Assembly: GCA_021771915.1 (NCBI GenBank)
Contig: JAETNY010000006.1
Span: forward strand, 124,001-188,000
DNA from: Bacillota bacterium
Lineage (GTDB): Bacteria > Bacillota > Dehalobacteriia > UBA4068 > UBA4997
Direction: 5' to 3'
DNA: 64,000 nucleotides
Shown: positions 2,736-53,255 of the stretch, one piece after another
Numbering within the stretch: the first letter of the stretch is position 1
How the letters are laid out: every line of letters starts with the position of its first letter
The notes under the pieces: model-generated
What the model was told of the DNA's origin: nothing
What the model saw: the letters and a program-made list of their open reading frames with translations, nothing else
Database searches by the model: none
Translations under genes and position numbers: made by a program

Positions 2736-2764
2736 ATTATAACACATCATAAAAAAAAGTGCAA
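2736..2764 (-). promoter_or_regulatory. Sigma-70 type promoter of der-plsY-gpsA
   Basis: On the minus strand a -35 element TTGCAC (2759-2764) and a -10 element TATAAT (2736-2741) are separated by 17 bases, placed about 50 bases before der. Confidence 0.75.
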
Positions 2765-2780
2765 CTTATCATTTTGTAAA

Positions 2781-2809
2781 TTGCAATTTATTTCTAGGCA
2801 TGGTATAAT
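2781..2809 (+). promoter_or_regulatory. Sigma-70 type promoter of the 2916-4469 cassette
   Basis: TTGCAA (2781-2786) and TATAAT (2804-2809) with a 17-base spacer. It diverges from the der promoter and sits about 100 bases before the first small membrane-protein gene. Confidence 0.7.
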
Positions 2810-2915
2810 ATAATTTAAATACGATTTTGTTAAGCAAAATTTTAGAGATAATTTATTATTTAGCAAAATGATAATCTAATGAACAGTTTTTCTAATTGTG
2901 AGGTGTTGTAGAAAA

Positions 2916-3143
2916 ATGCAGAAAATAATTTTTGGTATGCTGCTAACCTTTATCGCCACCCTTTTTGCCCTCTGCACATTTATAATCGCCGCTTTGCAGC
3001 CTTGGAACTATAACGGTATCGGCGGCTTGCTAGGTTCTTTCCTGGGCACACACATGCTGGTTCCGTTCATCATCTCAATGTCTATAATGTGTCTGGGGCT
3101 GGCCATTTGCGCAAAAGAGGCTTTTTCCAAAAAAAAGAGGTGA
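2916..3143 (+). CDS. Small two-helix membrane protein, unknown function
   Basis: A 75-residue protein with two hydrophobic segments (about residues 5-28 and 45-65) and a short Lys-rich tail, so probably an inner-membrane protein. I do not recognise a family. The ATG at 2916 is chosen over the in-frame GTG at 2898 because GAGGTG (2900-2905) sits ten bases upstream. It is first in a plus-strand cassette with a second membrane protein carrying an HExxH motif and a YjbR-like gene. Confidence 0.7.
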   Translation: MQKIIFGMLLTFIATLFALCTFIIAALQPWNYNGIGGLLGSFLGTHMLVPFIISMSIMCLGLAICAKEAFSKKKR

Positions 3144-3147
3144 GAAT

Positions 3148-3195
3148 ATGATTTACACAATCAATAAAATTAAAGATATTCTAATTGAAAATTAA
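3148..3195 (+). CDS. Possible 15-residue ORF or gene remnant
   Basis: An ATG at 3148 follows AGAGGTGAG at a good distance and opens a 15-codon frame ending in TAA (3193-3195). It begins four bases after the preceding stop and is followed by another ribosome-binding site for the gene at 3218. It could be a translated micro-ORF coupling the two genes, or the leftover start of a deleted gene. The only support is the ribosome-binding site and spacing. Confidence 0.3.
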   Translation: MIYTINKIKDILIEN

Positions 3196-3217
3196 TTTCA
3201 AAGGAGTTTAGCAAAAT

Positions 3218-3721
3218 ATGCAAGAAAACGCCAAACTGCGCAAATGGTGCGCTCTTTTAATCGCCATTATAGCTTATTACATTATCCACGAGGGTGCCCA
3301 TGCCATAACGGCTTTATTTTTTGGTACGTTTGAGCGCATACAAATGCTGGGGCTGGGCGTGCAGGTTGTAATCCAAACGGAACTTATGAACGACTGGCAG
3401 TTAGGTGTTTTCTCTATAATCAGCAGTATCGCCACCCTGTTTGTCGCTTATCTGCTGCTGACTCTGACTAAAAATATCGTGCAGACCAACAGCAAACTAA
3501 TCAAAGCAATTGGCTATTACACAACATTTACCCTGCTGCTGATTGACCCCATATATATGACTTTTTTATATAAATTTGTGGGCGGCGGCGATATGAACGG
3601 CATTAAGCTGCTGTGGCTGCCAGAATTGGGCTGGCAGATAATTTACGGAATTATTGCAATCATCAATGTACTGCTAATTGCCAGATACGTTTATCCTGCT
3701 TATAAAAAAGCTTTTAATTAA
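3218..3721 (+). CDS. Integral membrane protein with HExxH motif (possible M50-like metalloprotease)
   Basis: 167 residues with about four to five hydrophobic segments. The first helix ends in IIHEGAHAI (around residue 24), an HExxH zinc-site motif embedded in a membrane helix, as in site-2-protease-like (M50) families. A later DPIYM segment lies in a second conserved-looking helix region and might supply a third ligand, but the canonical M50 NPxPxLDG motif is not seen. It is preceded by AAGGAG and lies between a small membrane protein and a YjbR-like gene. Proteolytic function is inferred only from HExxH and topology; it could equally be an inactive relative. Confidence 0.55.
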   Translation: MQENAKLRKWCALLIAIIAYYIIHEGAHAITALFFGTFERIQMLGLGVQVVIQTELMNDWQLGVFSIISSIATLFVAYLLLTLTKNIVQTNSKLIKAIGYYTTFTLLLIDPIYMTFLYKFVGGGDMNGIKLLWLPELGWQIIYGIIAIINVLLIARYVYPAYKKAFN

Positions 3722-3746
3722 GCCTAGTTTTTAAGGAGGTTTGATT

Positions 3747-4469
3747 ATGCACGCCGAAAAAGAATTTTTTCAACGGCAAAAGGTAAATTTTAACATTTTG
3801 CCTGATTACGGCTTTGAGCAAACCGCTGACGGCTTTCTTTACATCGCTCCACTGTTAAATAAACAATTTAGTCTGCAAATTTATATTGATATGAACGGTC
3901 AGGTTTGGACAAAATTGCTGGATAACAATGCAAACTCTGAATATGTTCTGCATATGGTTGATGATGCGCAAGGCGAATTTGTGGGCGCAGTACGTGAAGC
4001 CTATCAGGCCGAACTGCAAAAAATTGCAGACAAATGTTTTCAGCCCGATGTTTTTCAAAACCCCACAACACAGGCCGTTATTGCTTATGCCGCCCAAACC
4101 TATCAGGACAAACCGGAATTTCTTTGGCCTAAAACGCCGGATAACGCCATTTTACGCCGTCAGGATAATAAAAAATGGTATGCCGCCCTGCTGACTGTGG
4201 CCAGAAACAAAATCGACTTAACTAATAAAGACGCTAATGAGAAAATCGAAATTATTGATTTACGTCTGCAACCGGATATTTTAAGCCAAACGCTGGACGG
4301 CATAAAATATTTTCCCGGTTATCATATGAACAAAAAGCATTGGTACACCATTTGTCTGGACGGTTCTGTTGAGGACGCAGAAATTTGCCATAGATTGGAC
4401 GTCAGCTATGAACTTGCTAAAAAAAATAGCCGCCGTTCTCTTGAAAAACGGCGGCATTTTTTGTGTTAA
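3747..4469 (+). CDS. MmcQ/YjbR family DNA-binding-like protein with N-terminal extension; 3' end runs through a terminator
   Basis: About 240 residues. The C-terminal 110 match the MmcQ/YjbR (CyaY-like fold) family, with segments such as NKKWYAALLTVARNKI, DLRLQPDILSQTL and PGYHMNKKHWYTICLDG, and then LDVSYELAKK, where relatives usually end. Cellular function of the family is uncertain. The first 120 residues are an unrecognised alpha/beta region. The ATG at 3747 is used because AAGGAGG (3733-3739) is seven bases upstream. After LAKK the frame continues through eight A bases into a GC-rich hairpin and its T-run, adding a 14-residue tail; one more A would give AAA TAG exactly at the expected end. 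The tail is therefore probably a frameshift product or a sequencing error. Confidence 0.75.
   Translation: MHAEKEFFQRQKVNFNILPDYGFEQTADGFLYIAPLLNKQFSLQIYIDMNGQVWTKLLDNNANSEYVLHMVDDAQGEFVGAVREAYQAELQKIADKCFQPDVFQNPTTQAVIAYAAQTYQDKPEFLWPKTPDNAILRRQDNKKWYAALLTVARNKIDLTNKDANEKIEIIDLRLQPDILSQTLDGIKYFPGYHMNKKHWYTICLDGSVEDAEICHRLDVSYELAKKNSRRSLEKRRHFLC
4429..4462 (+). terminator. Rho-independent terminator inside the 3' end of the YjbR-like frame
   Basis: Arms GCCGCCGTT (4429-4437) and AACGGCGGC (4447-4455) are followed by ATTTTTTG. The A-run on the other side would let it also act for the converging ispH-rpsA gene, which ends at 4476. Confidence 0.8.
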
Positions 4470-4475
4470 CTGAAA

Positions 4476-6578
4476 TTATTCTTCTTCAGCAGTGTCTTCG
4501 GAGTTGTCTTTCAACAATTCTTTAATAGAAAGGCTCAGGCGTTTATTATCAGTATCAACGCTCAAAACCTTAACTTCAACAACCTGACCAGGCGCCACAA
4601 CATCTTCGGTTTTTTCCACGCGACCTTTATCCAGCTGGGAAATATGAATTAAACCCTCAACGCCAGGCTCCAGCTGTGCGAATGCACCAAACGGAGCTAA
4701 ACGCATAATGGTTGCGCTGACAACCGCACCCACCGGATATTTTTCAGCTGCCAGACTCCAGGGATTGGGAATTAACTGTTTCAAGCTGAGAGAAATCTTT
4801 TTCTTCTCCGGGTCAACGCTCAAAACATAAACCTCAATCTCATCGCCCTCTTTCAGCACATCAGACGGCTGATTAATTCTATACCAGGCCATCTGGGAAA
4901 CGTGCAGCAAACCGTCCACGCCGCCCAAATCCACAAAAGCGCCAAAATTGGTCAAACGAGAAACCACACCACGGCGAGTCTGCCCCTCGGCAATCTCCGC
5001 CCAGATTGTTTCCTGCTTTTTCTTCAACTCCTCCATCTTCAGCTGTTTGGGAGAAAGCAGCAGACGGTTTTTATCTTTATCACACTCGATAACTTTAGCA
5101 GAGAGTTCCTTGCCAACATAGGCTTTAACGTCCTCTACAAAATGTGTATCCAACTGGGAATAAGGCACAAAGCCACGCACGCCAACGTCCATCAAAACGC
5201 CGCCTTTAACAGCCTCAACCACTTTACCGGTTACCACAGTACCATCTTCCTTGGCAACCTGCAATTTATCCCAAATTTTAACCACGTCAACCATGCGCTT
5301 GGAAACCACAGGATAACCCTCTTTGTTCTCCTTGCGAATAACAATCACGTCAAATTTGTCGCCAACATGGAATTTTTCCCGAATATTTTCAGCTTCTTCC
5401 GCCAAAAGTTGATTGCTGGGCAGAATACCCTCTGACTTACCGCCAATATCCACCAGCATTTCTGTATCGCGTACCTGCACAACAGTACCCTGCACGCACG
5501 AACCACGGTGAATATCCTTAATGCCGTGATTGTAAAATTCCTCAAAAGAAACATCATCACCCATCTGGTCCAGGCTGGGACCCTCTGGTTCAGCCTCTGC
5601 TTTGGCTGCTGCCACCGGTTTGGCCGCACTGGGTACAAATGACATCTCTGCCGCAAAATTGCGTTTAACTTCCTGCGTTTCCTCTTTCACTTCTGCTGTT
5701 TGCTCCATAACTTCTTTCAGTTCTGACATTTTTACTACTACCTCCTCAATTATCCAATCTGGCGTTGATGCGCCGGCACAAACGCCTACGGATTTAATTA
5801 ATCCGCCAAATAAATCAGCCGGCAGCTCGTCTGCCCCCTCCACCAGCAAGGCAGGCACACCGCTCTCCTGACATATCTGCACTAATTTTTTTGTATTGGC
5901 ACTGTTCTTTCCGCCAATAACCACCATCAAATCAACTCTGGCCGCCAAGGCTTTGGCCGCCTGCTGACGCTGACGCGTAGCTCGACAAATCGTATCATGA
6001 AAACAAACTTCCGCCAGCCCGGGCTTCTGCTGCATAACCGCCAAAACCTCGGCCAAATTAGCTTCTGTCTGCGTGGTCTGAGCCACAACGCCCCAACCGA
6101 TTTTGCCCTCTGGTAAATCCGGCAAAGCGGCAGCTTCTGCGGCATTGGCCGCAATCCAGGCCGAATTGGCCGTCCAAGCCTTTATGCCCAAAACTTCCGG
6201 GTGGTTATGGTCACCCACAATCACCACCTGACGGCCAGCTTGAAAAAACCCTCGCGCCGCCCGCTGTGCTTTTTGTACAAACGGACATGTTGCGTCTATC
6301 AAATCCAACCCCAGGGTTTCAGCCTGCGCATAAACCTCTGGCCCAACGCCATGTGAACGAATTACAACCCTGGCCAACACATCTTCATTTGCCAAATCAA
6401 TATTCTCAAGGCTGTCAACTACACAAACATAAACGGAAAGTCTGGCAATTTCTCTGGGATTGTGAATAAGCGGCCCCAACGAATATATCCGCCCGGCGCC
6501 AGCGGCTGTTTTAGCCATTGTCACAGCGCGTTTCACACCGAAACAAAAGCCGGAACCCTCAGCAACCTGAACTTCCAT
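4476..6578 (-). CDS. ispH-rpsA: Fused IspH (HMBPP reductase) and ribosomal protein S1
   Basis: A 700-residue fusion. Residues 1 to about 285 are IspH, the [4Fe-4S] enzyme that ends the MEP isoprenoid pathway. Its three cluster cysteines are seen in GFCFGVKRAV, DATCPFVQ and DTICRATRQRQ, with substrate-binding histidines in PLIHNP and GDHNHPEV. From about residue 350 four S1 RNA-binding repeats follow (for example DIGGKSEGILPSNQ, DVGVRGFVPYSQL, DLGGVDGLLHVSQ, LEPGVEGLIHISQL). Such fusions are known from Clostridia and relatives. At the junction GAGGAGG (5741-5747) lies 11 bases before an in-frame ATG at 5729, so a separate S1 of about 417 residues could also be made. Confidence 0.96.
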   Translation of the reverse strand: MEVQVAEGSGFCFGVKRAVTMAKTAAGAGRIYSLGPLIHNPREIARLSVYVCVVDSLENIDLANEDVLARVVIRSHGVGPEVYAQAETLGLDLIDATCPFVQKAQRAARGFFQAGRQVVIVGDHNHPEVLGIKAWTANSAWIAANAAEAAALPDLPEGKIGWGVVAQTTQTEANLAEVLAVMQQKPGLAEVCFHDTICRATRQRQQAAKALAARVDLMVVIGGKNSANTKKLVQICQESGVPALLVEGADELPADLFGGLIKSVGVCAGASTPDWIIEEVVVKMSELKEVMEQTAEVKEETQEVKRNFAAEMSFVPSAAKPVAAAKAEAEPEGPSLDQMGDDVSFEEFYNHGIKDIHRGSCVQGTVVQVRDTEMLVDIGGKSEGILPSNQLLAEEAENIREKFHVGDKFDVIVIRKENKEGYPVVSKRMVDVVKIWDKLQVAKEDGTVVTGKVVEAVKGGVLMDVGVRGFVPYSQLDTHFVEDVKAYVGKELSAKVIECDKDKNRLLLSPKQLKMEELKKKQETIWAEIAEGQTRRGVVSRLTNFGAFVDLGGVDGLLHVSQMAWYRINQPSDVLKEGDEIEVYVLSVDPEKKKISLSLKQLIPNPWSLAAEKYPVGAVVSATIMRLAPFGAFAQLEPGVEGLIHISQLDKGRVEKTEDVVAPGQVVEVKVLSVDTDNKRLSLSIKELLKDNSEDTAEEE

Positions 6579-25996: not shown

Positions 25997-26003
25997 GAAA
26001 TTT

Positions 26004-26819
26004 TTAAGCGCTTTTTTCATTTTGCAGCTGCTTGACCTCATCAATAGACAAACCAGAAATATTGATTATTTCTTCTAACGAATATTTTCCAGCAGAAAGC
26101 ATACGGCGAGCCGCTTCTTTTTTTTCTTCTCGTTGTCCTTCTTTTCTTCCTTCTCGCTGTCCGCGCGTTAAAATTTCATCTACAACACTACTCATAATTT
26201 CGACCTCCTTTTTATCCTCTTTCAAAAACCTTACTTTATCCGCTAATGTTTTGTATTTCATATCATCTGCTTTTTTGCATGAAAAATCATGCATTAACCA
26301 GCCCAGCGGTGTATCATCACGATAGGCTCCATTAACATATATTATATGCGCGCCATCGTTAAATATCTCATTTGTATCTAAATTGCAGCGCTCAATTCTG
26401 TATAGCGGTAAACCTTTCTTCATAACATCATTTTCGGTAATAAAAATAATGTAGGTTTCCGGCAAATCATCAAAATCGGAGCCTTTTTGCATTATTTTGC
26501 TGTCCAGCAAACTGCTGTGATAACGAGCACGCTTTTCACCAGCGCCTTTATCGGCGCGCTGAATTTCAATATTATATTTTTTGCCGGTGCTGTCGGTGGC
26601 TAAAACGTCCAGCCGTACCGAACGGTTTCGCAGATTAGCCAAAAAGTCTTGCGTGTGGGCCTCTGTAACCTGTAAATCATCTTTATTCAAAATAATACGC
26701 AGTACTAATTCAACGCAGGGAATATCATCTTCAAAGCATTTTGTCATGAAAATGTCGTCCAGCAAACAAAAGTTTTGTATGTACTCCAAATTGGTCTGGT
26801 TTATAGTTTCTTTTGCCAA
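26004..26819 (-). CDS. Rpn family recombination-promoting nuclease / PD-(D/E)XK transposase-like protein
   Basis: About 271 residues. The core has DDIFMTKCF, SVRLDVLATDSTGKKYNIEIQ (PD-(D/E)XK core: Asp, then Glu-x-Gln) and YHSSLLDSKIMQKG, typical of the Rpn (former transposase_31) family of DNA nucleases spread among gut bacteria. The C-terminal tail has REGRKEGQREEKKEAARR repeats and a helix-turn-helix-like ending SLEEIINISGLSIDEV. A TTG at 26819 with GCAGGTG upstream is the likely start; an upstream ATG at 26870 lacks a site. It stands alone in an AT-rich island and has a C-terminal fragment copy at 28234-28440 in inverted orientation. Confidence 0.85.
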   Translation of the reverse strand: MAKETINQTNLEYIQNFCLLDDIFMTKCFEDDIPCVELVLRIILNKDDLQVTEAHTQDFLANLRNRSVRLDVLATDSTGKKYNIEIQRADKGAGEKRARYHSSLLDSKIMQKGSDFDDLPETYIIFITENDVMKKGLPLYRIERCNLDTNEIFNDGAHIIYVNGAYRDDTPLGWLMHDFSCKKADDMKYKTLADKVRFLKEDKKEVEIMSSVVDEILTRGQREGRKEGQREEKKEAARRMLSAGKYSLEEIINISGLSIDEVKQLQNEKSA

Positions 26820-26919
26820 ATAAATCACCTGCCTTGTATTTATTCTAACATCATTTATATTTTTTTGCAATGTTTTTTGCTTAAAACAAGTTCAAATTCT
26901 TGATTGGTAAATTTTAAGA

Positions 26920-26957
26920 AAATAGAACCATTTCTTTTTAAGAAATGGTTCTATTTT
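26920..26957 (-). terminator. Terminator after HTH gene copy 1
   Basis: Perfect 17-base arms (26920-26936 and 26940-26956, core CCATTTCTT/AAGAAATGG) flanked by A and T tracts. Its central 21 bases recur in reverse complement inside the hairpin at 28452-28495. Confidence 0.75.
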
Positions 26958-27212
26958 TTATGTTTCTGGATTAAATTTTAGTAATAAATATGGTTCAATC
27001 TCTAAAACAGTTGCTATATTGAATAGTGTTTCTATTGATATACCTCTAAACATATTAGGCGCTTCAATAGAACCCATATGCTGCCTGCTAATTCCCACCA
27101 TTTGCGCTAATTGTTCTTGCGTTAAATGGCGTTTTTTACGATAATAAGCAATGGCAAAGGATAGATTTTGATATCTGATAGTATTGTCGAAAAGTCGTTT
27201 CTCCTTTGACAC
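26958..27212 (-). CDS. XRE-type helix-turn-helix regulator, copy 1
   Basis: 84-residue small DNA-binding protein. HTH region about residues 30-52 is LTQEQLAQMVGISRQHMGSI. It starts at GTG with GAGGTG upstream. It is about 85 percent identical by eye to the gene at 27386-27640, and the upstream region (CGACTATTGACGTGTAA) is shared too. This marks a tandem duplication of a regulator with a divergent partner gene. Such small repressors usually control their own divergent promoter. Confidence 0.85.
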   Translation of the reverse strand: MSKEKRLFDNTIRYQNLSFAIAYYRKKRHLTQEQLAQMVGISRQHMGSIEAPNMFRGISIETLFNIATVLEIEPYLLLKFNPET

Positions 27213-27349
27213 AATATCACCTCAATAATATATTTTATACAAAATTGAGAAATAATTAAATGCTTTATTTTACGACTATTGACGTGTAACAGATAATAAT
27301 ATGTAATTACATAGAAAAAAATAGTATTGTAACTAGAGGAGTAGAAAGA

Positions 27350-27406
27350 ATGAACAACTTAAAATCAGTTTTTAATCTGTATATTTTACATCTCTGGATT
27401 GAATTT
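27350..27406 (+). pseudogene. Remnant of the divergent partner gene, copy 1
   Basis: An 18-codon frame with AGAGGAG upstream. Its DNA aligns with an internal part of the gene at 27745-28137 (AGAAAGAA, TTAAA, TTTTAATCTGT, then TATT), while the rest of that gene is missing. It reads as a deletion remnant between the first regulator copy and the second. It overlaps the 3' end of copy 2 of the HTH gene. Confidence 0.55.
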
Positions 27407-27640
27407 TAGCAGTATACATGGTTCAATCTCCAAAACACAGGCTATATTGAATAATGTATCTAGTGATAATCCTCTAAACATATTAGGCGCTTCAATAGAA
27501 CCCATATGCTGTCTGCTTATTCCTGCCATTTCTGCTAACTGTTCTTGGCTTAAATGGCGTTTTTTACGATAATAAGCAATAGCAAAGGATAGATTTTGAT
27601 ATCTATTAGTATGGTCAAAAAGCCATCTTTCTTTCCCCAC
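27386..27640 (-). CDS. XRE-type helix-turn-helix regulator, copy 2
   Basis: 84 residues, HTH region LSQEQLAEMAGISRQHMGSI, paralogous to 26958-27212. GTG start with GAGGTG five bases upstream, the same arrangement as copy 1. It is divergent from the intact partner gene at 27745, with about 100 bases between them holding TTGACG and AT-rich -10-like sequence. Confidence 0.85.
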   Translation of the reverse strand: MGKERWLFDHTNRYQNLSFAIAYYRKKRHLSQEQLAEMAGISRQHMGSIEAPNMFRGLSLDTLFNIACVLEIEPCILLKFNPEM

Positions 27641-27744
27641 ATTATCACCTCTATAATATATTGTATATAAAATTAAGAAAATATTAAATACTCTGTTTCA
27701 CGACTATTGACGTGTAATAAATAACAATATATAATTGTATAGAG

Positions 27745-28137
27745 GTGAAAAATATTGAAAGAGAGGCGATTGTCGTGCATGAATGTGTGAAAAAAGATTT
27801 ACAGGGCAGCATTGAGCGGAAAGTTGAAGAGATAGTATTGGAATTGTCGGAGGACAAAGAAAGAACGCCATTAAACCAGCTTTTAATCTGTGTATTAAAG
27901 GCGCAAGTAGAAATTTATAAGGAATTGGATAAGCTGGAGGGTTTGGCCGAAAATTTGCAAAGTAAAAAAGCAAAAATTGATAGAAATTCCAAGGATTTTC
28001 TGACCCTCCGCGGAGTTTTGGTCGAAATGTGGATAAATAATATTATGGCCGTACGTTTGAATTGCGTTGATGAGGACGTTCTAAATGAAATGATAAAAAT
28101 GGACGAAAGAATGATAGAAATTGAAAATAAAATCTAA
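27745..28137 (+). CDS. Charged helical protein divergent from HTH copy 2, unknown function
   Basis: Up to 130 residues, almost all alpha-helical and rich in Lys, Glu and Leu (IERKVEEIVLELSEDKERTP, LDKLEGLAENLQSKKAKIDR), probably coiled-coil. No family recognised. The GTG at 27745 lies inside its own AGAGGTG, so the GTG at 27775 preceded by AGAGG is a better start. As the divergent neighbour of an XRE regulator it may be the regulated partner, possibly part of a toxin-antitoxin-like or plasmid-type module; this is inference only. Confidence 0.55.
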   Translation: MKNIEREAIVVHECVKKDLQGSIERKVEEIVLELSEDKERTPLNQLLICVLKAQVEIYKELDKLEGLAENLQSKKAKIDRNSKDFLTLRGVLVEMWINNIMAVRLNCVDEDVLNEMIKMDERMIEIENKI

Positions 28138-28233
28138 TAAACATATGAATAAAATTATCAGGCCAAAGTTATTTATTTTATATTTAAAATATAAATAATG
28201 TGTGATAAAAAATAAATTATTCATTTAATAATA

Positions 28234-28440
28234 TTGGCTGATAAAGTAAGGTTTTTGAAAGAGGACAAAAAGGAGGCCGAGATTATGAGTAGTGTTGTAG
28301 ATGAAATGTTAAAAGAAGGAAAAAAAGAAGTGGCTCGCCGTTTGCTGACCAATGGTAAACTTAGCATTGAGGAGATTGCTGAATATTCCGGCTTGTCTAT
28401 TGATGAGGTCAAGCAGCTGCAAAATGAAAAAAGCGCTTAA
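28234..28440 (+). pseudogene. C-terminal fragment of a second Rpn-family nuclease gene
   Basis: 68 codons nearly identical in sequence to the C-terminus of 26004-26819 (LADKVRFLKEDKKE, EIMSSVVDE, GLSIDEVKQLQNEKSA) but lacking the REGQREE repeats and the whole nuclease core. There is no ribosome-binding site before its TTG. It is in the opposite orientation to the complete gene, so the two form an inverted repeat around the HTH module. Confidence 0.8.
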
Positions 28441-28451
28441 AAATTTTATAT

Positions 28452-28495
28452 AAAAGATATAGCCATTTCTTAAAAAGAAATGGCTATATCTTTTA
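28452..28495 (+). terminator. Terminator after the Rpn fragment
   Basis: AAAGATATAGCCATTTCTT pairs with AAGAAATGGCTATATCTTT around a four-base loop, then T-rich sequence. Could also serve nusB from the other side. Confidence 0.75.
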
Positions 28496-28557
28496 TTATA
28501 AAACTAAAGTTTATGTTATAACCGCATATTATCCACAAATTATGCGACAATCGGCAA

Positions 28558-29259
28558 TCAGAACAAATCTTCCGGTTCCGGAGCAATTTTGTCCGCTTCT
28601 GTAATATCCACTTTACGAATTTTGCGAAAAGTTTTAACTGGTTCTGGCGCTGGCTGCAATTTACTGCGTCTGGCATAATTTTTATCTGCCTTTTTGCGCG
28701 CCATCACCATGGCGTCCTCCGCCGCCTTGTCCGCCCAGGCCTGCTCTGCCGCTTTGGCAATATCCGCGGCCGCGGCCTGTTGCTGCGCCTCTGCCTGCTG
28801 TAAACGCTCGTCAGCCTGACGCATCTGAACCTCATCAAGCTGATAATCGGCCGCTTTATCCGTCAAAACCGCATGCACAAACTTGTCCAAAACCGCATTA
28901 ATAAAACTTGGCGAATCATCAGTACCAAACTCTCGCGCCAGTTCAATCGCCTCATCAATTACAATCGGCGGCGGACTATCCGGCAGATATTTCAGCTCAT
29001 ACATGGACAAATGCAGTAAAAGCCTGTCCACCGAGCATAAACGCTCATATTGCCAGCCCTTTGCCAAACGGCGAATATATTGCTCTGTTTCAAAATGTTT
29101 CTGCCAGGCTCCTTGCGCCAAAACCACGGCAAAAGCTGCCGATTTCTGCGGCAGTTCCGCTTGCGCCAAAGTATGCTCCGCCATTTTCCAATCATTCGCG
29201 CCCTCAATCAACTGAAACAGCATCTGAAAAGCTGCTTCTCGCGCCTTATGCCTGCTCAA
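28558..29259 (-). CDS. nusB: Transcription antitermination factor NusB with long C-terminal extension
   Basis: Component of rRNA antitermination complexes. Residues 1-140 are a normal NusB: MSRHKAREAAFQMLFQ, SVDRLLLHLSMYELKYLP and AIELAREFGTDDSPSFINAV. The family is usually 130-150 residues; here about 90 more follow, Ala/Gln-rich helical (AQQQAAAADIAKAAEQAW), then basic, then acidic. It overlaps the DUF2273 gene by four bases and closes the asp23-amaP-DUF2273-nusB run. The frame is open with no sign of a frameshift. Confidence 0.95.
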   Translation of the reverse strand: MSRHKAREAAFQMLFQLIEGANDWKMAEHTLAQAELPQKSAAFAVVLAQGAWQKHFETEQYIRRLAKGWQYERLCSVDRLLLHLSMYELKYLPDSPPPIVIDEAIELAREFGTDDSPSFINAVLDKFVHAVLTDKAADYQLDEVQMRQADERLQQAEAQQQAAAADIAKAAEQAWADKAAEDAMVMARKKADKNYARRSKLQPAPEPVKTFRKIRKVDITEADKIAPEPEDLF

Positions 29260-40329: not shown

Positions 40330-42426
40330 ATGGCTATATATAAATGTAGCGTTTGCGGAAAAATTTTTGATGAGGAAAAAGAGGGTCAAAAACTCTCTGA
40401 TTTGGACGCCTGCCCGGTTTGCAAACAGCCGGTCAGCAAATTTGTGTGCATTGACCAGAAAACAGAAGCTCCGGCTGCACCCAGCTTAAACGCCGGCGAG
40501 TTGGCGTATGACGCGGCAACCGCCCGACACGACCAGTCAATCCGCTATATGGCGGAAATTCACGAAATGGCTGTTTCCGGCAAAACCATCGGCGGCGCAA
40601 TGTCCACCCAAATGCCACTGCCCAGCTGGGACGATATTCTGCTGATTGGCGCACAGCTGGCTAGAATGCCACTGAACGACCATGACCCGGTTGACACCAG
40701 AACCATTATCGGCAAAAAAGCCTTAAAACCTATGGTTTTGGAAAGCCCGATTTACATATCGCATATGTCTTTCGGCGCGCTTTCGCAGGAAATAAAGGTA
40801 GCGCTGGCTAAAGGTTCGGCGCTGGCCAAAACTGCCATGTGCAGCGGTGAGGGCGGTATTCTGCCGGCTGAACAGGCCGCCGCCTATAAATATATTTTTG
40901 AATATGTGCCAAACAAATACAGCGTCACCGATGAAAACCTGCGCAATGCCGATGCGATTGAAATTAAAATTGGTCAGGGCACCAAACCAGGTATGGGCGG
41001 TCATCTGCCCGGCGAAAAGGTAACGGCAGAGATTGCGGCACTGCGCGGTAAAAAGCAGGGCGAGGACGTGCAAAGCCCCAGCAAATTTGCCGAGTTAAAC
41101 TCACCAGACGACGTTAAAGCCATGGTGGAAATGCTAAGAGAACGCTCCGCCGGACGGCCGATTGGTCTGAAAATTGCCGCCGGCAATATTGAGCAGGATT
41201 TAGCCGTCTGCGTTTATGCCGGCGCAGATTTTGTCACTATTGACGGGCGTGGCGGCGCTACTGGCTCCAGCCCTCTGCTGCTCAGAGAAGCTACCACCGT
41301 TCCGACTATCTATGCCCTGCACCGCGCCAGAAAATATCTTAACGCTGTTAAATCTGATATGCAGCTGATAATTACCGGCGGCCTGCGCGTTTCCGCCGAT
41401 TTTGCCAAAGCCTTAGCCATGGGCGCCGACGCGGTTGCCATTGCCAGCGCGGCCTTGATTGCCGCTGCCTGTCAGCAATATCGCATATGCGGCAGCGGTA
41501 ACTGCCCGGTTGGTGTAGCCACACAAAATCCGGAACTGCGTGCTCGTCTGAAAATTGACGCCGCCGCCCAGCGCACAGCCAACTTCCTGAATGTGTCCAG
41601 AGCAGAACTGCAAACCTTTGCCAGAGTTACCGGGCACACCTCTGTACACGATTTAAGCATTGCCGACCTCATCACCTTAAACGAGGATATAGCCAAATAT
41701 ACAGATATTCCGCATGCCGGCATTGCCCAGACAGAACCCCAAATTAACATAAAAAAGGAGCATAACAACATGGTACAAGTTAAATGTAAGCTCTGCGGCA
41801 CAGTTTTTGAGGCCACCAGTCTGGCCGAGGCCACCTGCCCGGTCTGCAAAGCCACTGGCGATAAGCTGGAATTATTAACAGCAGAAACCGCCAATCCCTA
41901 TGCCGGCACGCAAACTGAACAAAATTTGCTGGCCGCCTTTGCCGGTGAATCACAGGCGCGCAATAAATACAGCTATTTTGCCTCCAAGGCCAAAAAAGAG
42001 GGTTTTGAGCAGATTGCCGCTTTGTTCCTGCAAACCGCCGATAACGAGAAAGAACACGCCAAAATGTGGTTTAAAGAATTGAACGGCATTGGCAGCACCG
42101 CCGAAAATCTGGCCGCCGCAGCTGCCGGTGAAAATCATGAATGGACAGATATGTATGTTGGCTTTGCAGAAACTGCTGAACGCGAGGGTTTTCCGGAGTT
42201 GGCGCAGAAATTCCGCATGGTTGCCGATATTGAAAAACGCCATGAGGAGCGTTACCGCGCTTTGCTGAAAAATGTGGAGACCCAACAGGTATTCCAGAAA
42301 AGCGAGGTTAAAGTTTGGGAGTGTCGCAACTGCGGCCATATCGTGGTTGGCACTGCCGCGCCGGAAATCTGCCCGGTTTGCGCCCACCCACAGTCTTATT
42401 TTGAAGTTCATGCCGAAAATTATTAA
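40330..42426 (+). CDS. Rubredoxin-like/FMN-binding glutamate synthase-like protein joined to rubrerythrin
   Basis: 698 residues. Residues 1-45 are a rubredoxin-like knuckle ([18 protein letters not shown]). Residues about 80-470 are the FMN-binding glutamate synthase domain ([46 protein letters not shown], and the CGSGNCPVG cluster motif). From Met481 follows a full rubrerythrin: zinc-knuckle [10 protein letters not shown], four-helix di-iron domain ([44 protein letters not shown]) and rubredoxin [10 protein letters not shown]...CPVCAHP. Rubrerythrin removes peroxide. AAAGGAG (41754-41760) stands nine bases before that Met, and one C fewer in CCCC (near 41737) would place a TAA just before it. 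The fusion may thus be two genes joined by an indel. Confidence 0.85.
41754..41772 (+). promoter_or_regulatory. Internal ribosome-binding site and start codon of the rubrerythrin part
   Basis: AAAGGAG followed after nine bases by the in-frame ATG at 41770. Translation from here would give a free rubrerythrin of 218 residues. Confidence 0.7.
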
Positions 42427-47066: not shown

Positions 47067-48209
47067 CTATTTATCTCGTCTGGCCACCACGCGTATAACA
47101 GAGGGGTCCTCATTGCCATAGGGTGCAAACCCTTTGCTGTCCTTGGCATATTCAACCAAAAAGCCGCACTCCTCCAACTCCGCCACCAACTCATCCAAGA
47201 CAATAAAACGGCGGTAATGATTATCATAAAAAAATGCATTATGCTCCAGCTGCCGACCCTTGCCAAACAACGGGTCTTTCACACTGCGCACCTCAATAAA
47301 CAACTTCCCACCCGGACGCAGACTGGCATACACCCTTTGCAGCAGTAACTGCTCCTGATTCTTATTTATTGAATGCATTGTAAAACGACTGTACGCATAA
47401 TCATAACCATTCGGGCGATGTATGTCGGAATTGATAAAATCTTCACAAATAAATTCCGCATTCGGAATATTCTGCTCCCGCAAATGCTCAATCGTCACCG
47501 ATGACAAATCCAACGCCGTAACCTTTAACCCCTGCGCCGCCAGATACACCGCGTCCCGGCCGTTGCCGCAGCCCAACTCCACCAGCCGCCGTCCCGGCTC
47601 TATCAGCGTCGCCACATATTGCGCAAACGGCGATGGCTGTTTACTGCAAACATCATTCTTATAATACTGATTCCAATAATCACGATTATCCACCGGGTTC
47701 TGCACAATATTCGGATACAGCTGACGCTCCAACTGCTCCACAATCTGCTCAGGCGTTTCTGCACCGTCATTCTCAATAACGATGTCCGGATTTTGAGGCT
47801 CATCAAAGGGCAGGCTGACCCCCACCACCGCACTGTCCGAAGTATAAAGGCCTTTCTGGTTGCGGCTTTGCAGAGTTTCCGGCTTTACCTTGATGTATAT
47901 TTCCTTATAATTGGTAATGTTTTCCCGGTTCCAGGCGCGCACGTCGGCATACATGGCGATTGAACAGCAGACCACGTCTATACCCTGCTCGGCCAGCATA
48001 CGGCAGACGCGGAAGATTCGCCAGGCACGTTTAACCCTGTCCTCATGGGTATAGCCGGTGTCCTCACAGAAAACCGGGCGAATTTGGTCGCCGTCCAGCA
48101 GAACCGCATTGGGCTTGGTGGCTTTCAGGCGGCGGAAAAACAGACCGCCAACAGTGGTTTTGCCAGCTCCGGCCAGACCGGTGAAAAAGTAAACCGTTCC
48201 TTTATCCAT
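47067..48209 (-). CDS. APS-kinase-like domain fused to a class I SAM methyltransferase
   Basis: 380 residues. Residues 1-165 have the APS kinase (CysC) fold: P-loop FTGLAGAGKTT, LLDGDQIRPVF, GYTHEDRV, EIYIKVKPETLQSRNQKGLY and VVGVSLPFDEPQNPDIVI. The family's usual Asn after the DRxE element appears replaced (DRVKRAW), so the substrate may be a nucleotide other than APS. Residues about 175-375 are a methyltransferase with VELGCGNGRDAVYLAAQG. There is no internal ribosome-binding site, so it is a true fusion. It starts directly after the sulfotransferase-like gene and lies downstream of flagellin. No ATP sulfurylase is in the window. A role in making a modifying group for flagellin or its glycan is inference. 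Confidence 0.8.
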   Translation of the reverse strand: MDKGTVYFFTGLAGAGKTTVGGLFFRRLKATKPNAVLLDGDQIRPVFCEDTGYTHEDRVKRAWRIFRVCRMLAEQGIDVVCCSIAMYADVRAWNRENITNYKEIYIKVKPETLQSRNQKGLYTSDSAVVGVSLPFDEPQNPDIVIENDGAETPEQIVEQLERQLYPNIVQNPVDNRDYWNQYYKNDVCSKQPSPFAQYVATLIEPGRRLVELGCGNGRDAVYLAAQGLKVTALDLSSVTIEHLREQNIPNAEFICEDFINSDIHRPNGYDYAYSRFTMHSINKNQEQLLLQRVYASLRPGGKLFIEVRSVKDPLFGKGRQLEHNAFFYDNHYRRFIVLDELVAELEECGFLVEYAKDSKGFAPYGNEDPSVIRVVARRDK

Positions 48210-50180
48210 TTAAAGCGGCTGGCCGTTTTTGTTGACAAAACGCAAACCGTCCATCAAAATTTGGGCTACATTCAAACGGTTTTCTTCAATGCTTTGCATA
48301 TACCAGTCCACCATAGCCTGGGTTAGTTTTTCCTCCGCTTCTGGCACCATCTCCGGCGATATGGATTTGTCTGTTTTCTGCTGCTCGGCCAGCTGACTGG
48401 CAGCTTGCTTAACCAGAACTCTGGGCAAACTATCACGCATAAACTTATCAATTTTCTCAAAATTACGCACCCACGCCAAAACCTGAATTTTATCCACCGG
48501 CTGCCCCTGATAATAATGGAAATCATAGCCATAGTATTCGTAAACATCACGCATAAAATATTCAATAAAAGCGCGCTCCGCATCACAAGCATAATCGTCA
48601 TAGGTTCTGTAAACAGCAGCCGTGCTGAAGCCAATATCGTTACCCTCCAGAGATTCCGGGTCGCGTTCACCATACAAAGAACAATAGGTCATGCTTTCAG
48701 TGTAGGGCAAATCGAGAAAAGCGGCCAACGCCTTAAAAGTGGCTTTGGGGTTCAGCTTACCGTCCTCAAAGCGCACCAAAATGCTATCCTTGAAAAGCCT
48801 GTCCTGCCAGTCTATCATAAAGCTGCGGTTCAAAACATAATTCACCAAAGCGTCGTCCATAACATGATTTTCGTCTTTATCCCCAGATTTAAATCTGATT
48901 GTTGCTGCATAACTGCTAGTCATGCGGCGCATAGGCGTAAATGTTTTGATATATTTGAAACCGCGGAACAAAGGCGATTGACGTATATTCTCAAACTGCT
49001 TGGAATATATCTGCGCCACTCCGGGCTGAAAATTATAAATCCCAAAAAATATATTAGTAAAGTGCGGCTGAAAGAAGATTGCCGGCACAATGCGCGACGA
49101 TTCGTCAAAGTTGGGAGAAGTCCTTTTCAGCGTCATCATAAAAAAAGCCACTAAAATATCTTTCAGAGTGCGGTTGGGCAGAGAGTATAATTCAAACAAA
49201 AGTTTTTTATCCACCCACTCAATTTTCTCCTGAACTTCCTCAAAATTTCTGGCATTATCCAAAATTTTGGCATGTTTGGTTAAGGTTTCCAAGGTTTCAT
49301 CAAAAAAAACGGAAGGTTCTGCCAGCAAATTAGGATGAGCGTCAAAAATCTCATTAAAAAAGTCACCGCCGTTATGCGCGGAAAGCTGGGTGTGCCAGAT
49401 AAGACGGTTATATTCACGGATACCAGGCATACGCACCGGATATTGAGTGTAATCTATGCCAAAACGCTCTTTAAAGTCAATCGGATACTGCTCTATTTCA
49501 TCTGCAATCAGATAAACAATTTTGCGCTCCTTTAATATCTTCGCCAAATCCCAAACCGCCAGATATGAGCAGAAAACACCCCAATCTGCATAATGCAGAT
49601 AAATATGGTTCTCCTTTGCCACATATTCGCTCTTGCGCACATTATCATTAAGATACTCCAACTCATACTGCGAGAAAACGTCTGCCGCTAAAATCGGTTT
49701 ATCCAAATCAGCAAAAAAGTTGCGGCTGATTACCTGATTATATGGCGCAAAAAATTCGCCAAACTCTCGCGCCTGCATATCATAAGGCACATATTTATTA
49801 TCATCAAAAGGATAAAATTTAACAGGCAAATCTTCAAAATCAAGAAAATCTTTGCGGAAAAGATACGGATATTTCTTCAGCAAACGGCAATTTTTATCAT
49901 AACGCTTTTTCTGCATTTTGCTGTTCGGCTGATAAAAAGCCAGCGTCATGATATCCTTGATTTCAGACGGCATAAAACCGCGTTTGTGCAAATCAACAAA
50001 AGTGCTGAAAGAAATTTGATAATCCTTGCCGCCGCCAAACTGCAATATATATAAGGCACACTCCATTTCCACCGCCTCATCAGCGCCCTGGCATTCATTA
50101 AGCGCCAGCTTAAAAGCCTTAACGGCCTCTGCCTTCTCCCCCAGAGTAGCCATTTTTCTGGCTATATCCAGCGTATTCAT
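48210..50180 (-). CDS. Large protein with a sulfotransferase-like C-terminal half, unknown substrate
   Basis: 656 residues. The first 50 residues look like a TPR-type helical pair (ARKMATLGEKAEAVKAFKLA). The middle is aromatic-rich and unrecognised. From about residue 270 the sequence resembles P-loop sulfotransferases: TQLSAHNGGDFFNEIFDAHP could be the PAPS 5'-phosphate loop, and SILVRFEDGKLNPKATFKAL plus FLDLPYTESM resemble the family's RYEDL-NP-LDIPY region. The ATG follows AAAGGAG. It ends immediately before the APS-kinase-like/methyltransferase gene and lies downstream of flagellin and yjfB, suggesting surface or flagellar modification. The assignment is moderate, from motif resemblance only. 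Confidence 0.55.
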   Translation of the reverse strand: MNTLDIARKMATLGEKAEAVKAFKLALNECQGADEAVEMECALYILQFGGGKDYQISFSTFVDLHKRGFMPSEIKDIMTLAFYQPNSKMQKKRYDKNCRLLKKYPYLFRKDFLDFEDLPVKFYPFDDNKYVPYDMQAREFGEFFAPYNQVISRNFFADLDKPILAADVFSQYELEYLNDNVRKSEYVAKENHIYLHYADWGVFCSYLAVWDLAKILKERKIVYLIADEIEQYPIDFKERFGIDYTQYPVRMPGIREYNRLIWHTQLSAHNGGDFFNEIFDAHPNLLAEPSVFFDETLETLTKHAKILDNARNFEEVQEKIEWVDKKLLFELYSLPNRTLKDILVAFFMMTLKRTSPNFDESSRIVPAIFFQPHFTNIFFGIYNFQPGVAQIYSKQFENIRQSPLFRGFKYIKTFTPMRRMTSSYAATIRFKSGDKDENHVMDDALVNYVLNRSFMIDWQDRLFKDSILVRFEDGKLNPKATFKALAAFLDLPYTESMTYCSLYGERDPESLEGNDIGFSTAAVYRTYDDYACDAERAFIEYFMRDVYEYYGYDFHYYQGQPVDKIQVLAWVRNFEKIDKFMRDSLPRVLVKQAASQLAEQQKTDKSISPEMVPEAEEKLTQAMVDWYMQSIEENRLNVAQILMDGLRFVNKNGQPL

Positions 50181-50255: not shown

Positions 50256-50429
50256 TTAGGCTTTAACATCAAACCCATAGGGGCTTGGTGGGAGCATTTC
50301 CTGCAATTCCTGCAAGGCCAGCTCCTCAACGTCCATCGCTTTTTTCTGCATGGAAATTGAATACTGCTGCTCCAACTTTGCCGCACTCATTTGCATTGCG
50401 CCAGAGGCGATACTATTCATCATATCCAT
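50256..50429 (-). CDS. YjfB-like putative motility protein
   Basis: 57-residue protein. Reading from the ATG at 50429 gives an Ala/Gln/Met-rich helical segment containing SISMQKKAMDVEEL and ending PYGFDVKA, the pattern of the YjfB family (putative motility protein, DUF of Firmicutes). GAGG precedes the start. It lies 31 bases after the flagellin stop, so it probably shares its transcript. Confidence 0.8.
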   Translation of the reverse strand: MDMMNSIASGAMQMSAAKLEQQYSISMQKKAMDVEELALQELQEMLPPSPYGFDVKA

Positions 50430-50460: not shown

Positions 50461-52710
50461 TTACTGCAACAGCTGCAAAACGCCCTGCGGAACCTGATTA
50501 GCCTGTGCCAGCATAGCCTGTGCAGACTGTACCAGAATGTTGTTCTTGGTGTAGCTCATCATTTCCTCAGCTACGTCAGTATCGCGGATAGAGGACTCAG
50601 CGTCCTGAATGTTCTCACGCATTACAGACAGGTTGTTAGATGTGTGGTCCAAACGGTTGCTGATAGCGCCCAGTTTACCACGAACAGCAGACACCTGATT
50701 GATAGCGTCTTTGATTACATTGATAGCAGCCTTAGCGCCATCAGCGGTGCTGATATCAATAGCGTCAATGCCCAAAGCCTTGGTGTGCATATCCTGAATA
50801 GAAACAGCCAGCTGGTTGTAACTGTCAGAGGTATCGCCAATCTGCAAATTCAAAGCTGTGCCCTCATAGCTGTTGCTGGAAAGTTTAACGTCTGCCGCCA
50901 CGCGCTGTTCCTGTGTATCCGTACCAGCTACGTCTTTAGATGTAATGGTCATCTTGTTACCATCAACGGAAAGGGTATACTTGCCCGGCAATTCCTTATT
51001 AATAGCTGTCTTCAAAGCGTCCAGAACATCTTTGGTGTTATACTCCGGAACAGTGCCGCCCTCAGCCAGACCCAATTTGCTCAAATCAACAGCAATGCCG
51101 TTCTTGGTGGAAGCATTGGCGCCGTCAGTAAACTCAAAGGTGATGCCGTCAATTGTGATGCTGTCGCCCTCTTTAATCTTGGTAACGTCCATCTCAAAGG
51201 ATACGTTAGCCGCAGACTCTTTGCTGCTGGAGTAGAACTGTTTCATAACATCAGCTTCAGTGCTCATGTTACAAGTTGGCGCGCCGGCAGCTGTGCTTCC
51301 GCCAATAGCAGTCGCATCATCAGTATAGGTGGACAAGGACTGGAATGTCAGTGTGCCTTTGCCGTCTTTAACGCCGCCATTACCTGTAGACCAGGTTGTG
51401 CTGTTTGCAGCACCCATATCGCCAACGATTTTATCCAAAGCCAGTTTCTGTTTGTCAACATCAGCCAAATCAGCTTCACTCTTGAAGATAGTAGACAAAT
51501 CAATCAGTGTTTGGCTAGCAGTGGCCGCTGTTGTACTGTTTGCGCCAACCTTGAACACATAATTCTTCTCGCCAACAGTCAGAACGTCGCCGTCTTTCAG
51601 CTTGTTGAAATCAATATCAACCTGCGCCTGAGCCTGGTGGCTGGCGCCAACGCCCATACCGGTTGTGGTCTTCTGAACCTGCCAGTTAACCGTACCAGTG
51701 TTGTCGCCCACTCTGGCTTTAACTTCAATCGGGAAATCAGGGTGAATAACTTCGCCGCCGCTTGTGCCCATAAAGTCAGCCTGCTCAAAGTTAACAGTGT
51801 TGCCGTTAACCGTCATCTTATAGTAGTGGTCGCCAATCTTAATGGCTGCTTGTGTTGCTGTGCTGGAAGCGTCAGCCAGACCGTCATATTCTGCGTCCCA
51901 GGTAGCGGTACCGGCCTTGCTGGCTTCAGTTGCAGCGCCGTTGGCAGAGCAGGCAACATCAGATGTAATCTTTTTGCCAGCCTGCATAACAGCTTTGGCA
52001 ATCTGAGTGCCAGTCATAGCAGTGGCAGCACTGCCAGCCTCAGCAATAATAGAATCATTACCAATCATAACTTCAATCTTGGCAGTTTTGCCGCTGCCGG
52101 GATTGGGCATGGTCACATCATCGAAGCTGATGGAGAACTTGGTGTTGGTCTGCGTAGTTTGCGCCGGCGGACGGTTGGTGATATAAGCAACATCAAAAGC
52201 GCCGCTGGGGCCGGCTGCCTTAAAATCATTAACAGTCAAATTCTGAATTGGGCTGCCAGCACTGATGTTGGCAGTGCTTTCAGAATCCAGAGAGCCGTCC
52301 AACAATTTAATGCCGTTGAAGTTAGCGCTGTCTGCGATACGGTTAATTTCATCGCGCAGCTGGTCAACTTCCTGCTGCAGGTTCTTACGGTCAACTTCGT
52401 TATCGTAAGTGCCGTTAGCAGACTGTGTGGAAAGGTAAACCATACGGTTCAACATATCCTGAATTTCCTGCATAGCGCCCTCAGAGGTGTTTACCAGAGA
52501 GATGCCGTCTTTTACGTTCTTCTGAGCAGCTTCCAAGCCGGTAATCTGTGCGCGCATTTTTTCGGAGATAGCCAGACCAGCAGCGTCGTCGCCAGCGCGG
52601 TTAATCTTGTAACCAGATGACAATTTCTCCAAGTTTTTGCTCAAAGCAGAAGTGTTTTTGTTGTAGTTACGATAGGCGTTCATCGCCATAATGTTGTGTT
52701 GAATACGCAT
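50461..52710 (-). CDS. Flagellin, large form
   Basis: 749-residue filament protein, secreted by the flagellar type III system. The N-terminal D0/D1 region (about 1-170) is canonical: MRIQHNIMAMNAYRN, LEKLSSGYKINRAGDDAAGL and NFNGIKLLDG. So is the C-terminal region (about 620-749): RGKLGAISNRLDHTSNNL, RDTDVAEEMM and NILVQSAQAMLAQANQ. The 450 central residues are a variable surface region rich in Thr, Ala and Gly, about 2.5 times longer than in short flagellins (around 270-300 residues). The start follows ACAAGGAGCG. csrA lies immediately upstream. Ser/Thr-rich exposed domains are typical sites of glycosylation. Confidence 0.97.
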   Translation of the reverse strand: MRIQHNIMAMNAYRNYNKNTSALSKNLEKLSSGYKINRAGDDAAGLAISEKMRAQITGLEAAQKNVKDGISLVNTSEGAMQEIQDMLNRMVYLSTQSANGTYDNEVDRKNLQQEVDQLRDEINRIADSANFNGIKLLDGSLDSESTANISAGSPIQNLTVNDFKAAGPSGAFDVAYITNRPPAQTTQTNTKFSISFDDVTMPNPGSGKTAKIEVMIGNDSIIAEAGSAATAMTGTQIAKAVMQAGKKITSDVACSANGAATEASKAGTATWDAEYDGLADASSTATQAAIKIGDHYYKMTVNGNTVNFEQADFMGTSGGEVIHPDFPIEVKARVGDNTGTVNWQVQKTTTGMGVGASHQAQAQVDIDFNKLKDGDVLTVGEKNYVFKVGANSTTAATASQTLIDLSTIFKSEADLADVDKQKLALDKIVGDMGAANSTTWSTGNGGVKDGKGTLTFQSLSTYTDDATAIGGSTAAGAPTCNMSTEADVMKQFYSSSKESAANVSFEMDVTKIKEGDSITIDGITFEFTDGANASTKNGIAVDLSKLGLAEGGTVPEYNTKDVLDALKTAINKELPGKYTLSVDGNKMTITSKDVAGTDTQEQRVAADVKLSSNSYEGTALNLQIGDTSDSYNQLAVSIQDMHTKALGIDAIDISTADGAKAAINVIKDAINQVSAVRGKLGAISNRLDHTSNNLSVMRENIQDAESSIRDTDVAEEMMSYTKNNILVQSAQAMLAQANQVPQGVLQLLQ

Positions 52711-52924: not shown

Positions 52925-53125
52925 TTATTTGCCATATTTTTCTCTTACTCTGCGGATACATTCCGGTGTTTCTCCGTTGCGCTCATGCACCTTGGCGCGT
53001 TCTATCGCCAACTCACGCGGCGCGTCAATCGCCACCCGGCACACATCGCCAACTTTCAAAATCTGGATAACCACGTTATCGCCGATTGTAATGTAATCCC
53101 CAGCATGAACCGTTAAAGCTAACAT
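52925..53125 (-). CDS. csrA: Carbon storage regulator CsrA
   Basis: 66-residue homodimeric RNA-binding protein that blocks translation of flagellin mRNA in Bacillus-type systems. The pattern is MLALTVHAGDYITIGDNVVI, followed by VRVAIDAP-type (here CRVAIDAPRELAIER) sequence. The ATG at 53125 with AGGGAGG upstream is chosen; the longer frame to 53194 adds non-conserved residues. It is directly upstream of flagellin. The usual antagonist gene fliW is not in the window. Confidence 0.95.
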   Translation of the reverse strand: MLALTVHAGDYITIGDNVVIQILKVGDVCRVAIDAPRELAIERAKVHERNGETPECIRRVREKYGK

Positions 53126-53255
53126 TTTACATACCTCCCTGTGAAAACGCCCAACCACCGGCAAGCCGGCAGCCTGACGCAAAACATACACCAACCGCCG
53201 GCTGATGTAGTCCTCTTAAATCCATTTGTTTAAATCGACAATTGCAAAACTACCA

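Follow-up and report, generated by a model that had tools for sequence, protein, structure and literature searches.

In Campylobacter jejuni, Cj1415-1418 make the 3'-phosphate form of cytidine diphosphate (CDP)-phosphoramidate (PMC11800397), and the O-methyl phosphoramidate (MeOPN) modification uses separate transferases, Cj1421 and Cj1422 (PMC3907429). Phosphonyl tailoring of the PepM-Ppd-PntC type involves a phosphoenolpyruvate (PEP) mutase, a phosphonopyruvate decarboxylase and a cytidylyltransferase, including fusions of a nucleotidyltransferase (NTase) to PepM (PMC6697681). For Clostridioides difficile, mass spectrometry has identified phosphate-linked methylated groups on flagellin and 2-aminoethylphosphonate (AEP) on the flagellin glycan (PMC8861647). 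Here, we analyze a stretch of 64,000 nucleotides from a gut bacterium of the Bacillota (contig JAETNY010000006.1, positions 124,001 to 188,000; hereafter the window), in which a flagellin gene is followed by genes for a 656-aa protein with a predicted sulfotransferase fold and a 380-aa fusion of a kinase similar to adenosine 5'-phosphosulfate (APS) kinases with a methyltransferase. We consider it probable that these genes form a flagellin-modification cassette that applies the chemistry of 3'-phosphoadenosine 5'-phosphosulfate (PAPS) to a cytidine nucleotide with a phosphate or phosphonate cargo. PAPS is the donor that animals use for sulfation, a carrier tagged with a 3'-phosphate.

The cassette lies on the minus strand. 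A gene for CsrA (52925..53194; PF02599; start probably at residue 24 of the open reading frame, ORF), which precedes flagellin in several relatives as well, is followed by the 749-aa flagellin, the presumed acceptor (50461..52710; Flagellin_N 5.2e-43, Flagellin_C 1.1e-27), a 57-aa YjfB-type putative motility protein (50256..50429; PF14070, 40.7 bits, cut-off 27), the 656-aa protein (48210..50180) and the kinase-methyltransferase (47067..48209). The initial annotation had described this arrangement correctly. The pair is located downstream of flagellin and yjfB, the stop of the 656-aa ORF directly abuts the ATG of the 380-aa ORF, and the APS_kinase and Methyltransf_23/25 matches share one uninterrupted frame.

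The proposed likeness of the 656-aa protein to PAPS-dependent sulfotransferases turned out to be weak in sequence and clear in structure. The Pfam sulfotransferase family PF13469 scored E 0.0014 and 19.4 bits, below its gathering cut-off of 27, and matched 1 of 19 transferase homologues; searches of PDB sequences, with the single sequence and with a profile, returned nothing meaningful. Structure prediction, set beforehand as a possible refutation, found a sulfotransferase fold. In the AlphaFold model built from the 19 homologues (mean pLDDT 69.7, pTM 0.57), residues ~250-557 (48510..49433) match tyrosylprotein sulfotransferases (Foldseek E 5.9e-5, probability 1.00), and structural alignment to TPST2 (VIA-align, model range 251-557) yielded a Z of 10.1 over 226 residues with a root-mean-square deviation of 5.0. 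The domain predicted alone gave the same top family. It is preceded by an N-terminus and a middle region and followed by C-terminal helices; the first ~85 residues resemble tetratricopeptide repeats (TPR) in structure comparison, a common arrangement and hence a weak match. The window protein ends in NGQPL (48210-48240), whereas in its homologues the chain extends ~20 residues further, through a conserved tail (HMMPxLELDPALLEQPLY).

As judged from the model, the 656-aa protein has a sulfotransferase fold with recognisable but altered sequence landmarks. The motif resembling the 5'-phosphosulfate loop, IWHTQLSAHNGGDFFNEIFDAHPNLLA (residues 261-287; 49320..49400), contains an N270-G-G-D that is invariant in the 19-homologue alignment and replaces (K/R)xGTT (consensus IWHTQLSxHNGGDFFNEIFDxHPNLL). 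The counterpart of the 3'-phosphate loop, FKYIKTFTPMRRMTSSYAAT (residues 408-427; 48900..48959), features invariant K412, R418 and T421 (consensus FKYIKTFTPMRRxTTS), and a third sulfotransferase-type landmark, LVRFEDGKLNPKATFKALAAFLDLPYT (residues 468-494; 48699..48779), has the consensus LVRFEDGKLNPKATFxALAAFLDLPYT; the PF13469 match covers residues 416-495. The register of these loops relative to TPST was read by eye from the common DAHP. Although TPST1/2 represent the closest solved fold to residues 250-557, the window protein differs from them in its bacterial origin, its TPR-like N-terminus, its donor loops and the lack of a PAPS supply.

The kinase domain (residues 1-165; 47715..48209) matches APS_kinase (PF01583; E 6.6e-27, residues 3-146) and exceeds the cut-off of the PRK05541-type model NF004041 (NCBIfam; 147.6 bits, cut-off 127); it is fused to a class I S-adenosylmethionine (SAM) methyltransferase domain (residues 166-380; 47070..47714; Pfam match at residues 197-352). 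We compared 19 kinases of the cassette system with 27 APS kinases from a phylum search, several of which lie in long frames suggesting fusion to other sulfate-activation domains, and with three kinases taken from operons of the phosphoramidate type. The core of P-loop, DGD and KGLY, common to the window kinase and CysC, is mainly kept in the system kinases, whereas the APS-binding residues are replaced. The altered DRVKRAW element noted in the initial annotation was confirmed, and further positions differ as well: the Asn of NIRR is Asn in 24/27 and Gln in 3/27 APS kinases, and neither is ever the commonest residue in the system kinases; the Pro of ISPY is invariant in APS kinases (27/27) and replaced by Met in all 19 system kinases, corresponding to SIAMY in the window (residues 83-87; 47949..47963), with Met86 present in 22/22 members of the clade; and the lid Lys and Phe-Thr-Gly of APS kinases have given way to other residues, both in the window kinase and throughout the 19 system kinases. 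In the tree, a 100/100 branch separates the system kinases and the three operon kinases from the 27 APS kinases. The exception is the more distant kinase of cassette L051 (L051:2346-2864), which is placed with the APS kinases, at the end of a very long branch. Clade membership and the PRK05541 score support the view that the window kinase is a relative of CDP-phosphoramidate-type 3'-kinases rather than an APS kinase. Its fusion to a methyltransferase recurs in five other genomes at ~70-83% identity (L041, L043, L044, L047 and L048, the latter from genome G028) and is therefore not a sequencing artefact; the six fused kinases form one supported clade (96/86).

These data bear on the simplest alternative, ordinary PAPS-dependent sulfation of flagellin by a true APS kinase and a protein sulfotransferase, which would explain the TPST-like fold and the APS_kinase match. 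However, ATP sulfurylase (PF01747), already reported missing from the window, is absent from the whole genome (a 2.3 Mb draft, 98.6% complete) and altogether from 15 of the 16 carrier genomes, and PF01507 gives weak, partial matches in the window genome, none of them full-length. Moreover, the APS-pocket Asn, the Pro of ISPY and the lid Lys and Phe are replaced, the tree places the kinase apart from the APS kinases, and the relatives carry genes for phosphonates and CDP-linked groups instead. With both ATP sulfurylase and the APS-pocket residues wanting, we rejected sulfation as very unlikely.

Across 84,980 species genomes scanned, 18 transferase loci were detected, one of them (L052) in the isolate Flintibacter muris DSM 110149, and three further loci were read from their genomes. 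There are 22 further transferase copies, found in gut bacteria of the Oscillospiraceae and Peptococcaceae. No homologue was found on plasmids or phages, and a 299-genome sample of the phylum contained none beyond the window bacterium's own genus. A flagellin gene on the same strand directly precedes the cassette in 11 of the 18 loci (those with enough sequence), in 3/3 further loci and in the window; it is partly present in L046, its 3'-end leaves traces in L045, L051, L054 and the second copy of the window genome (contig C18), and L040 shows a YjfB trace. A survey of whether the pair lies near flagellin, proposed at the outset, thus gave a positive answer for all loci whose upstream sequence was long enough. 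The kinase is next after the transferase in 16/18 loci and in 3/3 further loci.

What follows the kinase varies. Apart from the fused methyltransferase (window, L041, L043, L044, L047, L048), the cassettes carry a PEP mutase, frequently as a fusion with nucleotidyltransferase domains (L042, L045, L049, L054, L056, L096, L097), an IspD-like cytidylyltransferase, in most cases with an NAD-dependent epimerase (L046, L050, L052, L053), or a TagD-like cytidylyltransferase fused to a dehydrogenase (L055). PEP-mutase loci mostly also encode phosphonopyruvate decarboxylase and an iron-dependent alcohol dehydrogenase or a transaminase, with matches to the PEP mutase, decarboxylase and PhnW models over curated cut-offs. 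L056, for instance, comprises consecutive genes for flagellin, transferase, kinase, NTase-PEP mutase, the dehydrogenase, the decarboxylase and a PHP protein, and L096 contains an AEP transaminase over cut-off. In the AEP-type cassette of L096 (L096:3758-4472), both the decarboxylase gene and the PHP gene are truncated, one continuing into the other; L097 of the same genome encodes an intact copy of the decarboxylase. L040 and L057 encode an AEP-type ABC transporter instead, followed by a nucleotidyltransferase in L040; for L057, a nucleotidyltransferase is present in the genome. The AEP-binding protein gene of L040 (L040:2281-3278) is split over two overlapping frames, compared with a single 332-aa frame in L057, reflecting either a sequencing error or decay. 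PHP proteins are encoded in at least seven loci; their best NCBIfam model is mostly a 3',5'-nucleoside bisphosphate phosphatase, below cut-off.

We infer every reaction, the acceptor and the cargo of the window from the computed fold, kinase clade, gene linkage and cargo-gene identities. In the relatives, a cytidylyltransferase would generate cytidine monophosphate (CMP)- or CDP-X, with X being a small phosphate or phosphonate such as 2-aminoethyl- or hydroxyethylphosphonate or a group similar to glycerol- or polyol-phosphate. The APS-kinase-like enzyme would then place a 3'-phosphate on the cytidine, yielding 3'-phospho-CMP/CDP-X. Next, the 656-aa enzyme may recognise the constant 3'-phosphocytidine handle and transfer phospho-X to a hydroxyl group on flagellin or on the flagellin glycan, leaving 3',5'-bisphosphocytidine, which the PHP phosphatase, where encoded, could recycle. 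The initial annotation had envisaged a 3'-phosphonucleotide donor, transfer of its group by the large protein and capping by the methyltransferase. The 3'-phosphonucleotide and sulfotransferase-fold parts of this scheme are supported, and its unspecified group has been narrowed to a cargo that is probably phosphate- or phosphonate-linked as opposed to sulfate. Its idea that the kinase product differs from PAPS gains support from the phylogeny, the lost APS-pocket residues, the CMP/CDP-X genes of the relatives and the bisphosphate-phosphatase-like gene. The phosphate-linked methylated groups and AEP on C. difficile flagellin make this class of product plausible. The type A modification of that species would share with our cassette a dedicated cluster, a phosphate-linked methylated group and an AEP variant, but cd0240-cd0244 are, by description, a different gene set (PMC8861647).

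For the window itself, the genome gave no match above cut-off to PEP mutase and contained neither a close cytidylyltransferase of the LicC/PntC type nor a close match to phnS2; a dedicated phosphonate cargo was therefore dismissed. Since no dedicated cargo pathway is apparent, the donor is probably built from a housekeeping nucleotide and SAM, for example as 3'-phospho-CDP-OMe. On this basis, O-methyl phosphate is our tentative candidate for the cargo, held at somewhat less than even odds. The relatives' cassettes share PEP mutase, decarboxylase, cytidylyltransferase and NTase-PepM fusions with phosphonyl tailoring systems; however, those have been described with LicD-like phosphotransferases or glycosyltransferases, with no sulfotransferase or sulfate kinase mentioned (PMC6697681), and the window genome differs from them in its lack of an over-cut-off PEP mutase.

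MeOPN, as on the Campylobacter capsule, could also be considered as the group placed on flagellin, given that a kinase plus a methyltransferase suits a methylated group and that the kinase shares a clade with those of phosphoramidate-type operons. These operons, on plasmids of Azospirillum and Smac51, encode a PRK05849 PEP-utilising enzyme, a peptidase-C26 amidohydrolase, a cytidylyltransferase and a methyltransferase, a gene content that suggests the phosphoramidate type; their individual enzymes presumably correspond to Cj1416-1418. In the Azospirillum plasmids (L099 10033-12573, L100 10033-12549), the 3'-kinase has ~650 additional N-terminal residues fused to it, with no significant Pfam match, and annotated sulfotransferase-domain genes lie downstream. 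By eye, the N-terminal part suggested a sulfotransferase, a reading not relied on (Pfam E 0.055 in one of the two proteins). By published description, the C. jejuni pathway also uses an APS-kinase-like enzyme to produce a small phosphorus group linked to 3'-phospho-CDP, the likely donor (PMC11800397), but its acceptor is the capsule, whereas the present cassette is linked to flagellin and can swap its cargo. Furthermore, the phosphoramidate cargo needs a glutamine kinase, and a PRK05849-type enzyme is absent from the window genome and yields no match over cut-off in seven other carriers. As the close LicC/PntC-like cytidylyltransferase is missing too, MeOPN appears highly improbable and was rejected for the window genome on the absence of PRK05849.

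The absence of dedicated cargo genes would also suit a more direct route, in which the kinase phosphorylates a flagellin glycan, the methyltransferase methylates that phosphate and the 656-aa protein performs a separate transfer. WbdD provides a precedent for a kinase-methyltransferase fusion that places methyl phosphate on a sugar. However, the window kinase belongs to a superfamily that acts on nucleotide 3'-hydroxyls, its closest relatives adjoin cytidylyltransferases rather than glycosyltransferases, and a bisphosphate-phosphatase-like PHP neighbour would have no explanation. Direct capping of a glycan is thus unlikely, and transfer from a 3'-phosphocytidyl donor remains the preferred interpretation.

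Several observations weigh against this interpretation. The PHP matches fail to reach curated cut-offs, with RNase RNM scoring almost as well, and the methyl-phosphate cargo rests on the absence of alternatives in a draft genome. Two genomes of the same genus, G029 and G032 (92% and 96% complete), have the transferase next to AEP-import genes and a nucleotidyltransferase, and no kinase was found in them; since the cassettes break contigs, their assemblies may be incomplete. Finally, the 5' loop lacks a conserved catalytic Lys/Arg, with H, D or G preceding the NGGD, so that transferase activity is not assured. Together with the TPR-like N-terminus, this change would fit a non-catalytic, sulfotransferase-like scaffold or flagellin chaperone, with modification left to other genes. 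However, the strong conservation of the domain, its near-constant pairing with the kinase and the lack of any other conserved transferase in the core cassette make a purely structural role quite unlikely.

If 3'-phosphocytidyl donors are indeed used, the distribution of the cassette parts may reflect modular exchange. The methyltransferase-fused kinases form one clade, whereas the six associated transferases are scattered in a transferase tree that is taxon-like rather than cargo-like, as expected if kinase and cargo genes move together and the transferase reads a constant 3'-phosphocytidine. The notion of cargo-specific transferase subfamilies was dropped, as the transferase phylogeny does not follow individual cargo types, the methyltransferase and PEP-mutase forms among them. 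One genome (G328) has three cassettes (L047, L096, L097), each with its own flagellin, and a metagenome-assembled genome (G324) has four. In L050 (3246-3295 and 3461-3510, 100% over 50 nt) and L045 (54-108 and 276-330), the 3' terminus of the flagellin gene (~45-50 bp; AQANQVPQGVLQLL(Q/G) stop) is duplicated between flagellin and transferase, with traces in L046, L053, L054 and L056. This pattern looks as if modification cassettes were exchanged at these sites.

The window genome contains a second transferase copy (contig C18), 74% identical to the window's, which is preceded by a YjfB copy (91%) and followed by a kinase start identical over 37 residues up to the contig end; the window's kinase is the single full APS-kinase-like gene of the genome. 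In this second cassette (L083:2590-2670 and 2737-5956), two large recombinase-like ORFs terminate next to what is left of a flagellin gene, its last 27 codons, after which YjfB, transferase and kinase start follow, and flagellin there looks interrupted. Elsewhere in the window, a 698-aa ORF (40330-42426) appears by eye to combine a glutamate-synthase-like domain with rubredoxin/rubrerythrin segments, an unusual fusion, and a low-GC stretch (26000-29000; 0.33-0.35 vs ~0.49) contains a likely Rpn-like recombination-promoting nuclease ORF (26004-26870), also read by eye.

We found no description of a flagellin-linked pair of 3'-kinase and sulfotransferase-fold protein in the literature, paywalled work aside. 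The cassette would extend the known 3'-phosphocytidyl donors of the MeOPN type and has a real chance of defining a broader class. It is an evenly balanced question whether 3'-phosphocytidine serves generally as a handle, much as PAPS does but built on cytidine, through which one sulfotransferase-fold family handles many CMP/CDP-activated phosphonates and phosphate esters, with cargo cassettes swapped at flagellin genes. If the proposed mechanism is true, the transfer step that has been missing from bacterial surface tailoring with phosphonates and MeOPN-type groups could be assigned to a concrete enzyme family, and the odd 3'-phosphate of the nucleotide would have an explanation. The flagellins of Oscillospiraceae common in the gut, potent ligands of the immune system, would then be expected to bear phosphonates or other phosphate groups, with a single kind on each flagellin. 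Moreover, annotations as 'adenylyl-sulfate kinase' and 'sulfotransferase' may be wrong in genomes without ATP sulfurylase, and if the handle is general, many annotated APS kinases and sulfotransferases of bacteria that do not activate sulfate would instead take part in 3'-phosphocytidine chemistry.

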